Part shown: positions 23,780 to 26,005 of the stretch, in pieces
Numbering within the stretch: position 1 is the first letter of the stretch
How the letters are laid out: each line of letters opens with the position of its first letter
Assembly (NCBI GenBank): GCA_028277205.1
Contig: JANQGT010000019.1
Location: 1 to 42,530, forward strand
Direction of reading: 5' to 3'
Source: Candidatus Altimarinota bacterium
GTDB lineage: Bacteria > Patescibacteriota > Gracilibacteria > BD1-5 > UBA2023
Length of the DNA: 42,530 bases
The notes under the pieces: model-generated
Seen by the model: the letters and a program-made list of their open reading frames with translations, nothing else
The model's database searches: none
What the model was told of the DNA's origin: nothing
Program-made: the position numbers and the translations under genes

Positions 23780-23806
23780 TTGCGAAATGGGAAAAAGGGG
23801 TATACT
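23780..23806 (+). promoter_or_regulatory. Promoter of array RNA 1
   Basis: TTGCGA (23780-23785), 15 nt, TATACT (23801-23806). Confidence 0.65.
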
Positions 23807-23810
23807 GGAT

Positions 23811-23988
23811 GTGCCAAATTTTTCCAATCACGGATTATTTTTTCATTCAAAATTCCCAAAGAGCCAAAAGACGGGTAACCGTCCGCGCTCTTTGAGAATT
23901 GCGCAAGTAATCCGCATTGAGGAAAAGTTTGGCGACCTAGGACGGTTGCCCGCTTTTGCGTGCACTGTCGGTCACCTACTTCTTCACT
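23811..23988 (+). ncRNA. Array RNA 1, rod-shaped with GNRA-capped tip
   Basis: About 178 nt. Closing helix GCCAAA/TTTGGC, then the constant T-G wobble, then unit-specific helices TTTTCC/GGAAAA, GGATTA/TAATCC and AAAGAG/CTCTTT. The tip is GACGG-GTAA-CCGTC. The 3' domain (from GGCGACC at about 23931) has an inner hairpin GCCCGC-TTTT-GCGTGC and pairing GACGG/CTGTC. Ends are predicted from the promoter and from conservation, not measured. No ORF. Confidence 0.8.
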
Positions 23989-24045
23989 ATTCTCTCATGG
24001 ATACGTCGTAAATCCAACATTCTCGCCAGTATTCTCCCCAGTATT

Positions 24046-24072
24046 TTGACACTGGGAAAAACCGGGTATACT
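24046..24072 (+). promoter_or_regulatory. Promoter of array RNA 2
   Basis: TTGACA (24046-24051), 15 nt, TATACT (24067-24072). CCAGTATT copies upstream are inverted relative to ATACTGG at the -10. Confidence 0.75.
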
Positions 24073-24076
24073 GGGT

Positions 24077-24261
24077 GTGCCAGATTTACATGATTATACA
24101 ATGTGGAGGTGTGGATTTTATGTTTCCAAACCCTTGAAGAATTTGACGGGTGACCGTCCCGTTCTTTGGGGGTTGTACGCACAACCACATTGAGTGTAAG
24201 TCTGGCGACCTAGGACGGTTGCCCGCTTTTGCGTGCACTGTCGGTCACCTACTTCTTCACT
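24077..24261 (+). ncRNA. Array RNA 2, rod-shaped with GNRA-capped tip
   Basis: About 185 nt. Closing helix GCCAGA/TCTGGC with T-G wobble, then TTACA/TGTAA, CAATGTGG/CCACATTG, AACCC/GGGTT and AAGAA/TTCTT. Tip GACGG-GTGA-CCGTC. The 3' domain is identical to RNA 1, although the rod sequence is unrelated. An alternative local hairpin GGTTGT-ACGC-ACAACC exists in the 3' arm. Confidence 0.82.
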
Positions 24262-24319
24262 GTCTGCTCTATGAATACGTCGTAAATCCAACATTCTCGC
24301 CAGTATTCTCCCCAGTATT

Positions 24320-24346
24320 TTGACACTGGGAAAAACCGGGTATACT
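24320..24346 (+). promoter_or_regulatory. Promoter of array RNA 3
   Basis: TTGACA (24320-24325), 15 nt, TATACT (24341-24346), with the same upstream spacer as RNA 2. Confidence 0.75.
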
Positions 24347-24350
24347 GGGT

Positions 24351-24548
24351 GTGCCAGATTTGCTTATCAATAAACGAACGTTTTTTTGTCCGTGTAAGAT
24401 CCGTATCAATAGAAGACAAAGGCGGGCGACCGTCCACGTCTTCCATTGATACGCGCGTGGAAACACAAAAGCGTTCAATATTGAAGGCAAGTCTGGCGAC
24501 CTAGGACGGTCGTCCGTTTCGGCGTATCGTCTCGCCTACTTCTTCACT
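24351..24548 (+). ncRNA. Array RNA 3, rod-shaped with GNRA-capped tip
   Basis: About 198 nt. Closing helix GCCAGA/TCTGGC with T-G wobble, then TTGC/GCAA, TCAATA/TATTGA, GAACG/CGTTC, TTTTTGT/ACAAAA, GTATCAAT/ATTGATAC and GAAGAC/GTCTTC. Tip GGCGG-GCGA-CCGTC. The 3' domain is shortened in its distal half and carries GACGGTCG, the exact complement of the tip sequence CGACCGTC. Confidence 0.82.
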
Positions 24549-24606
24549 GTCTGCTCTATGAATACATCATAATCCGAATTTTCACCAGTATTTCCCTTGG
24601 CAGTCT

Positions 24607-24633
24607 TTGACATTGTCTGAAATGGGATATACT
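24607..24633 (+). promoter_or_regulatory. Promoter of array RNA 4
   Basis: TTGACA (24607-24612), 15 nt, TATACT (24628-24633), second spacer type (GAAATGGGA before the -10). Confidence 0.72.
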
Positions 24634-24637
24634 GGGT

Positions 24638-24804
24638 GTGCCAAATCCCTACTAGCTATTCTCGTACTTTGTGAGTACGTCGGCATTGACGGGCGACCGT
24701 CTGCTACGTCTTGCTGATATACTCACGCGGGAATGTAGGGGTTTGGCGACCAAAAGGCGGTCGTCCGCTTTTGCGTACATTGCCGTCACCATCACTTTTT
24801 CACT
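24638..24804 (+). ncRNA. Array RNA 4, rod-shaped with GNRA-capped tip
   Basis: About 167 nt, the shortest and most diverged. Closing helix GCCAAA/TTTGGC with T-G wobble, then CCCTAC/GTAGGG and GTGAGTA/TACTCAC. Tip GACGG-GCGA-CCGTC. In the 3' domain GACGG/CTGTC is replaced by GGCGG/TTGCC and GCCCGC/GCGTGC by GTCCGC/GCGTAC, both compensatory. The 3' end reads CACTTTTTCACT instead of CTACTTCTTCACT. Confidence 0.8.
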
Positions 24805-24862
24805 ATTCTCTCATGGATACGTCGTAAATCCAACATTCTCACCAGTATTCCCCCCAGTATTT

Positions 24863-24889
24863 TTGACACTGGAAAAAACCGGGTATACT
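24863..24889 (+). promoter_or_regulatory. Promoter of array RNA 5
   Basis: TTGACA (24863-24868), 15 nt, TATACT (24884-24889), first spacer type. Confidence 0.75.
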
Positions 24890-24893
24890 GGTC

Positions 24894-25101
24894 GTGCCAG
24901 ATTTTTCTCACGAAAAGGCAAGGATTGCTACTTTCGTGTCTTCAGACTCATTTTTCTTTAGTACAGAAAAAAGACGGGCGACCGTTCGCTTCCTGTACTA
25001 AGGAATTGCGAAAAGCGATCCTTTTTCGGAGAAAAGTCTGGCGACCTAGGACGGTCGTCCGTTTTGACGTACGGACACTGTCGGTCGCCTACTTCTTCAC
25101 T
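24894..25101 (+). ncRNA. Array RNA 5, rod-shaped with GNRA-capped tip
   Basis: About 208 nt, the longest. Closing helix GCCAGA/TCTGGC with T-G wobble, then TTTTCTC/GAGAAAA, CGAAAAGG/CCTTTTTCG, GGATTGCT/AGCGATCC and TTAGTACAG/CTGTACTAA. Tip GACGG-GCGA-CCGTT. The inner 3' hairpin is lengthened to CGTCCGT/ACGTACG with the same C-T mismatch position as in the other units. Confidence 0.82.
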
Positions 25102-25159
25102 ATTCTCTCATGGACACATCATAAATCTGCATTTCCCGCCGTATTTCCCTTTGCAGTCT

Positions 25160-25186
25160 TTGGCATTGTCTGAAATGGGATATACT
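25160..25186 (+). promoter_or_regulatory. Promoter of array RNA 6
   Basis: TTGGCA (25160-25165), 15 nt, TATACT (25181-25186), second spacer type. Confidence 0.7.
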
Positions 25187-25190
25187 GGGT

Positions 25191-25376
25191 GTGCCAAATC
25201 ACTATTGATAACCAGAGGTTTTTTCGGCAATTTTCGTATGGACAGATACACGCAGGTAGGGATGGGTGACCGTCCATCCTGTGTGTACCATACGGTATAT
25301 CTCTGGGATAGTGGTTTGGCGACCGAGGACGGTTGCCCACTTTTGTGTGTGCTGTCATGGTCGCCTACTTTCTCAC
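25191..25376 (+). ncRNA. Array RNA 6, rod-shaped with GNRA-capped tip
   Basis: About 186 nt. Closing helix GCCAAA/TTTGGC with T-G wobble, then CACTAT/ATAGTG, CCAGAG/CTCTGG, GTATGG/CCATAC and TACACGCAGG/CCTGTGTGTA. Tip GATGG-GTGA-CCGTC, with a compensating T-G pair. The 3' domain has GGCGACC and GGTCGCC as perfect complements. A small ORF starts ten bases after the predicted end. Confidence 0.82.
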
Positions 25377-25385
25377 TTTTTCTCT

Positions 25386-25676
25386 ATGCCGCACGCATGA
25401 GCCGGGTCCCAGCACGATCGCGATCGCGATCACGATCATGAGTCAGAGTCCCATCACGGTAGCCATTCTGATCACGATCATGAGTCAGAGTCCCAGCACG
25501 ATAGCCATTCTGATCACGATCCCGAGCGGGATTTTGATCCCGATCCGCATGTCGAGATGGACTACCGTCGTGAGTATTTTATCCTGCTACAGGAGCATAT
25601 GATTATGAAAAAATACTTTCAGACTCTCGTCGGAGACTACGCAGAAATCTTTTTGAAATCAAAAAGAAAAAAGTAG
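25386..25676 (+). CDS. His/Asp/Ser-rich small protein next to the RNA array
   Basis: A 96-residue frame with one TGA-Gly at codon 5 and a TAG stop. Residues 8-55 are almost only His, Asp, Glu and Ser (HDHESES, SHSDHDHES), built from a 42-bp tandem duplication, and could bind metal ions. The second half (MDYRREYFILLQEHMIMKKYFQTLVGDYAEIF) looks like an ordinary helical domain with a Lys-rich end. It begins ten bases after the last array RNA, so it could be read by transcription running out of the array. No family is recognised. Low complexity lowers confidence, although the clean frame through both parts argues for translation. Confidence 0.6.
25428..25511 (+). repeat. Two 42-bp tandem repeats
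   Basis: Copies 25428-25469 and 25470-25511 differ at only two positions (cccatcacggtag versus cccagcacgatag). The length is a multiple of three, so the repeat extends the His/Asp-rich protein in frame. Confidence 0.9.
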
Positions 25677-25747: not shown

Positions 25748-26005
25748 ATGGATATCGATACTGTCTGCTACATCGTCGTCCCATTTCACTGGACGTTTTG
25801 GATTGCATTTGCATTGTTTCTCATCCTGTCTATCGCGTGGTATCTGTCGGTGCGTATACTGATACGCGCCGAGGCTGGTACGATCATAGATCTCTACATA
25901 GAGGAGCGTGGTCGCAGAAACGATGCAATGTACAAGCAAAGACTAAATATATGGGAGATGGCAGCCGAGGACGAGAGAAAAAGGAGAGAGAAAGAATCCC
26001 AGTAG
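25748..26005 (+). CDS. Small single-span membrane protein
   Basis: An 85-residue protein with one strong hydrophobic helix at about residues 15-38 (FWIAFALFLILSIAWYLSV), then a charged helical tail rich in Arg, Glu and Met. No family is recognised. It stands between the RNA array with its microprotein and the LytR-CpsA-Psr gene, and ends in TAG. The ATG at 25748 lies directly before the hydrophobic segment. Confidence 0.6.
   Translation: MDIDTVCYIVVPFHWTFWIAFALFLILSIAWYLSVRILIRAEAGTIIDLYIEERGRRNDAMYKQRLNIWEMAAEDERKRREKESQ

Follow-up and report, generated by a model that had tools for sequence, protein, structure and literature searches.

A tandem array of six promoter-led units

The window is the whole stretch of DNA analysed, 42,530 nt of contig JANQGT010000019.1 from Candidatus Altimarinota bacterium. 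Positions 23780–25376 hold six tandem units on the forward strand, whose RNAs are predicted to start at 23812, 24078, 24352, 24639, 24895 and 25192, with start-to-start spacings of 266, 274, 287, 256 and 297 bases. In each unit, a –35 and a –10 element separated by a 15-nt spacer precede TGCCA(A/G)A, which marks the approximate transcription start. A long rod follows, then the segment TGGCGACC...GGACGGTYGYCC, and on the 3′ side of this segment a short U-tract and pyrimidine-rich sequence lead to an ATG. The original prediction had described six units of 256–297 bp, each with a TTGNNN-15-TATACT promoter and a TGCCARA start, and both descriptions hold for every unit. The promoter of unit 1 (TTGCGA-15-TATACT) occupies 23780–23806 (+ strand), and the –10 boxes of units 2–6 lie at 24067, 24341, 24628, 24884 and 25181 in the same layout. 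A –10-like box a few bases before TGCC is also present in most of the relatives inspected.

The RNA of unit 1 (23812–23959, + strand) comprises a closing helix, P1 (TGCCAAATTTTTCC / GGAAAAGTTTGGC), a bent rod, a long-range helix, S2, and the U-tract; its S2 strands are GGGTAACCGTCC (23873–23884) and GGACGGTTGCCC (23940–23951). The RNAs of the other units, all on the + strand, are unit 2 (24078–24232; S2 strands 24148–24159 and 24213–24224), unit 3 (24352–24523; 24424–24435 and 24504–24515), unit 4 (24639–24774; 24691–24702 and 24755–24766), unit 5 (24895–25068; 24976–24987 and 25049–25060) and unit 6 (25192–25346; 25264–25275 and 25327–25338). Folding predicts 40–58 pairs in each of the six rods. 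The RNAs had been drawn at 167–208 nt, reaching to the pyrimidine-rich end; the RNA is retained, but a shorter core that ends at the U-tract, 136–174 nt from TGCCA, is more likely. The U-tracts in this genome are short (CGCTTTTG, CGTTTCG), and termination there may therefore be weak.

Behind the last unit of every array stands a real gene, in the window gene A (25386–25676, + strand, genetic code 25). Gene A encodes a small acidic and His-rich protein (MPHAGAGS...) with a helical C-terminus and matches no Pfam family. Paralogues stand behind four other arrays of the same genome (on contigs C5, C10, C17 and C20) and probably behind a fifth; the MPHAGAGS-like start and the helical end are conserved among them, and the acidic/His-rich stretch is hypervariable. 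Gene A is usually followed by gene B (here 25748–26005, + strand), which encodes 85 amino acids with one predicted membrane segment and has a near-identical copy after a C20 array. The internal units of the genome instead lead an ATG with an ORF of two or four codons (MP, MDTS, MNTS, MGTS, MDTT). In the window these are M-D-T-S-stop after unit 1 (23997–24011), followed by MNTS at 24271–24285 and 24558–24572 and MDTS at 24813–24827 and 25110–25124, all on the + strand.

The genome (G000; 1.06 Mb, 52 contigs) reads well with TGA as glycine, as in Gracilibacteria/Absconditabacteria. A search with the 3′ domain finds 27 places, corresponding to about 27 units in seven arrays; the six further arrays lie on contigs C5 (two), C10, C17 and C20 (two), and two extra copies stand at the ends of contigs C4 and C21. 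Contigs C5, C10, C20, C21 and C4 of G000 break inside or beside arrays, and C5 and C10 begin identically. Because several arrays begin at contig ends, the assembly is broken there; the array sizes given are minimum values, and the true number of units is probably higher.

The rod tip pairs with the 3′ domain

The tip of the rod and the 3′ domain are the two strands of S2, which together with P1 makes each RNA a pseudoknot. S2 measures 11–25 bp in 85/85 members and differs greatly in sequence between lineages; the lowest S2 score among these members is 27, compared with a 95th percentile of 19 in shuffled sequences. Its 3′ strand starts 3–15 nt after P1 and runs directly into the U-tract, which lies behind S2 in all lineages inspected, and its 5′ strand often starts A-rich, facing the U-tract. 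The original prediction had pointed to a constant GNRA-capped tip and a constant 3′ domain. Both are present, but the pairing of the two was overlooked, and the GNRA loop is not a conserved element, reading GUAG in G001 and being replaced in other genomes. Every unit has a tip GGGYRAYCGTCC that is complementary to GGACGGTYGYCC, and the tip is kept because of this complementarity. The tip's own stem shows one-sided changes only, and 7 of 26 units have lost the outer pair of this stem.

Variants of the two S2 strands change together, as in GGGCAATCGTTC with GAACGGTTGCCC (C5_14841) and CCGTCT with AGACGG (C5_702), and other genomes pair GGGCGACTTATGT with ACATAAGTCGCCC and GGAGTAATTATCC with GGATAATTACTCC. 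Among the units, 99.4% of cells between tip and 3′ domain are paired and four pairs are changed on both sides (0/500 shuffles); in the 26 units of G000 and G001, the best fit of a tip or terminator strand is to the partner from its own unit (0/20,000 permutations). Across 38 sequences, double changes occur in 10 of the 12 S2 pairs (83 cells, 94.7% paired), and P1 shows 106 double-change cells, 96.9% of them paired, neither result being reached in 500 shuffles. Sliding S2 or P1 by 1–3 columns collapses the covariation signal. P1 reads UGCCARAU.../...GUUUGGC, then GAC or GAAC, and a U·G wobble occupies its seventh pair in 32/37 sequences.

A local hairpin, GGCRACC/GGTYGYCC, was considered as the main 3′ structure and rejected, as it shows no double changes and is absent from many relatives. 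It fits all units of the window's genome and is possibly an alternative state.

Relatives in the phylum and a copy in a phage contig

A full-length covariance model (R2) finds members in 13/77 genomes of the order. A model built from 38 members (R3) matches 35/353 genomes of the class, in four families, and 1/380 genomes in a sample of the phylum, the latter from another class; inspection by eye of this member reveals P1, GCGAC, S2 (TGCGGCTATTTAC with GTAAATAGTCGCA) and TTTTTG. In all, the family occurs in 36 or more genomes, which belong to a single bacterial phylum, and the copies in other genomes are mostly single. A covariance model, a search of other genomes and a look for further arrays had been proposed as checks on the original prediction, and all three gave positive results.

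A descriptor consisting only of P1, GCGA(A)C, S2 and the U's matches 120/127 member loci, none in 1.76 Mb of unrelated bacterial DNA and one in 4.56 Mb of viral DNA. Terminator-only pattern scans of genome contigs and of viral contigs were discarded, as they return chance matches. The single viral match is a complete copy in contig IMGVR_UViG_3300029968_000082 (L305:2139–2277); P1 patterns occur in about 200 viral contigs, of which only this one passed P1, S2 and U-tract together. The phage copy stands behind a Bacteroidota-like TACCTTTG box and is convergent with the adjoining gene, which matches phage tape-measure families and has relatives in Parabacteroides, Riemerella and Bacteroides phages. 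The phage collection contains no DNA match to this copy, and 393 Bacteroidales genomes yield no full-length match, only three partial ones that do not include the 3′ strand.

These searches, together with the covariation, bear on the idea that palindromic, low-information repeats have been over-read as structure. Minimum-free-energy folds alone would not exclude chance, and opposite-strand model matches do occur, a consequence of the palindromic rods. The covariation, however, survives both shuffle and slide controls, the arms described below pass cis/trans permutation tests, and the descriptor counts and the Bacteroidales genomes separate member loci from unrelated DNA. We consider such an artefact extremely improbable.

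The arms keep pairing and geometry

Between P1 and the tip, the two arms of a unit pair with each other, as the original prediction had stated. In the 26 units of G000 and G001, the duplex energy of arms from the same unit is –28.7 kcal/mol, compared with –13.9 kcal/mol for arms taken from different units; the cis partner is the best of its row in 23 of the 26 units, and 0/20,000 permutations are as good. Restricting the comparison to the inner arms gives the same cis preference in 23 units of the window's genome, and also in 62 members that include other genomes. G-U pairs make up about 11% of arm pairs, as expected of drift under a pairing constraint and not of freshly made palindromes. The claim that the arms share no sequence between units stands for most of them, but some keep traces of ancestry: for example, the arms of C17_6234 are related to those of C5_14540 and of window unit 2. 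Selection on shape rather than on sequence, also part of the original prediction, is supported by the covariation in P1 and S2.

The geometry of the rod is kept as well. Among the 85 members, the rod measures 41.3 ± 4.9 bp. Its largest asymmetric bulge falls on the 5′ side in 82 of them and is placed at 0.49 ± 0.10 of the rod length. This main bulge is U-rich, with a median of 11 nt and none opposite, and a TTTT run is found in the 5′ arm of 73/85 members, compared with 34/85 for the 3′ arm. The rod consists of two limbs of about 20 bp each with a hinge between them, and given this mid-rod bulge it could fold back on itself. A bend at the hinge, inferred from the sequences, would lay the tip beside the base and let S2 form.

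The flanks are 98–99% identical between units although the arms differ, a pattern that would be explained if the rods were recombination sites or cassettes folded as single-stranded DNA, in the manner of integron attC sites. Array ends that coincide with contig breaks and a serine recombinase behind two copies fit such a DNA-level element. Exchange or conversion among near-identical spacers is nevertheless enough to explain identical flanks around different arms, given old divergence and the existence of related arms. Promoter, U-tract and start codon are moreover placed as for an RNA across lineages, copies elsewhere are mostly single, and the conserved ends are not attC R-boxes: on direct reading, RYYYAAC/GTTRRRY is absent from the ends of P1. 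A role at the DNA level is accordingly very unlikely. CRISPR and attC arrays resemble the window in having unique inserts in tandem between near-identical flanks, but each insert here is a self-paired rod that carries a promoter of its own, and the checked genes adjoining the array include no recognisable cas or integrase gene.

The RNAs stand as leaders before co-oriented genes

The downstream gene is co-oriented with the RNA in 49/52 loci, compared with 25/51 for the upstream gene. Most of the genes behind are for secreted or surface proteins. The products include type IV pilin-like and S-layer proteins, lipoproteins and further exported proteins, as well as zinc-ribbon proteins, DNA methyltransferases of the EcoRI and other types, and two serine recombinases. 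An N-terminal hydrophobic segment is present in 32/50 targets and in 19/82 background ORFs, the background being drawn from G000 and G001 loci only. Genes for EcoRI-type adenine methyltransferases follow the leader immediately at L245, L254 and L258 (genomes G031, G118 and G116; two families). Most start codons behind the leaders are preceded by a pyrimidine-rich stretch (e.g. TTTTTTCACTTTTTTATAT) and not by a purine-rich Shine-Dalgarno sequence.

This placement is the point at which a cis-acting leader and a trans-acting RNA part. In the latter case, the closed pseudoknot, locked at its two ends, would act as a stand-alone small RNA or RNP scaffold, S2 and the U-tract would be its own terminator, and the genes behind would be incidental or reached by read-through. 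It is the strongest competitor of the leader reading, since the phage copy and a few of the units lack a gene of their own, and a purely cis-acting regulator would have no need of such units: unit 1 of the G001:C15 array and units of the two-unit G026 arrays have no ORF before the next promoter, and no co-oriented gene follows the Bacteroidota-type phage copy. The many copies with separate promoters in one genome also agree with it. The co-orientation of downstream but not upstream genes, the enrichment of envelope genes among the targets and the gap of only 14–28 nt to the ATG in many members of family f5 argue against it, and we regard a trans-acting role as unlikely, though a serious contender. 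The suggestion that the array encodes diversified decoys or guides fares poorly for related reasons, the RNAs being leaders directly before co-oriented genes and mostly single copies in other genomes.

The distance to the start codon also bears on a translational role, in which S2, extended by pairing of the A-tract with the U-tract, would hide a U-rich ribosome landing region, the window's mini-ORFs would be initiation sites kept active, and translation rather than termination would be regulated. The pyrimidine-rich stretches before starts in this clade, a U-tract that ends 2 nt before the ATG in G009 and G018, and the ten distinct four-codon mini-ORF versions of the window's genome, which vary mostly at third codon positions, are in keeping with this. 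In many members, however, 60–170 nt separate the U-tract from the start codon, and some carry a second classical terminator in between. Regulation of translation alone is therefore improbable, and more so than action in trans.

A candidate attenuator closed by the rod tip

On the sequence evidence, we favour, with moderate confidence, a reading of each unit as a cis-acting leader RNA, probably an attenuator, in which the tip of the rod closes the terminator stem. The leader lies between a promoter and a co-oriented gene, and a terminator-like stem runs into a U-tract in the lineages inspected, the U-tracts of the window being weak. S2 and the U-tract would form an intrinsic terminator, or else a cover for the U-rich start region, and the gene behind would be expressed or not according to whether tip and 3′ strand meet. 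A read-through fold would arise where a downstream strand competes for the 3′ strand of S2 (D) or for the 3′ strand of P1. In G026, G018 and G022, a downstream strand, GAGCGATTATC, is able to pair with D; the same strand also folds into a U-tailed hairpin, a second terminator. In many members of the GCGAAC type (L245, L243, L239, L241, L266, L204, L213, L264, L265, L259 and L260), TGTTYGCCARAAC... behind the U-tract pairs with the 3′ strand of P1 over 13–18 bp. Such competing strands are clear in some lineages only and not in the window; together with the terminator-like S2, they are the reason for taking the RNA as a two-state attenuator, in which the tip either meets D or does not.

The arms would act as levers, of which only length, hinge position and stiffness matter, and this would explain why their sequence is free while their pairing is constrained. 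In the window, the leader would have been multiplied in tandem before genes A and B, and every copy has a separate promoter and start codon. A bolder version, which we put forward only tentatively, is that of a shape-only regulatory RNA: a hinged, two-limbed lever that bends its tip onto its own terminator strand and senses a signal common to surface, pilin and DNA-methyltransferase genes of host-dependent bacteria, forming arrays in one genus and occurring in at least one phage of another phylum.

Comparison with known RNAs

At the gathering thresholds of Rfam release 15, the window matches tRNAs only, and when the array, the phage copy and eight related loci are scanned by E-value, only chance matches result. 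The open literature searched describes no RNA motif from these bacteria and no family of this plan, and the original view that no described RNA family has it is borne out by the absence of an Rfam match.

Attenuators of the trp type and of pT181 repC likewise combine a 5′ leader, strands with two alternative pairings and a U-tract terminator beside the controlled gene. No leader peptide or antisense gene was found here, in contrast, and the apical loop of a long rod supplies the 5′ strand of the terminator, which makes the OFF stem a pseudoknot. In riboswitches with a loop-to-3′-strand pseudoknot, such as the cobalamin kissing loop, an apical loop pairs with the downstream expression platform, and the pairing of an apical loop with a downstream strand is shared by the present RNAs. 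They differ from riboswitches in lacking a large ligand pocket of conserved sequence: nothing resembling a conserved ligand-binding core can be seen, and only GCCARAU/GUUUGGC-GAC and the U-rich bulge are kept. 6S RNA and bacterial SRP RNA are also long bulged rods transcribed from their own promoters, but the present RNAs differ from both in the long-range S2 and the leader position, and the Rfam scans give no match to either, the 6S covariance model included.

FopS (RF04319) comprises paralogous sRNAs with many copies per genome, one of them reported in a phage, and consists of a single-stranded seed and a terminator hairpin (PMC11697453). The many paralogous copies per genome and the phage copy are common to both families. 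FopS was nonetheless set aside, as its seed-and-hairpin plan differs and the RF04319 match is only at chance level and on the opposite strand. Leader attenuators and loop-to-3′-strand pseudoknots are thus known kinds, and what is new is this architecture with its shape-only conservation.

If S2 is a terminator, it would be an intrinsic one with its 5′ strand placed at the far end of a 40-bp rod, and it would have to be asked how a stem of this kind could close quickly enough behind the polymerase. The family is also a clear example from nature of selection acting on RNA geometry while sequence is nearly free. To our knowledge, hardly anything has been described of how these reduced, host-dependent bacteria control their genes, and the targets of the leaders, namely pilins, S-layer proteins, lipoproteins and DNA methyltransferases, are candidates for a part in contact with the host cell.
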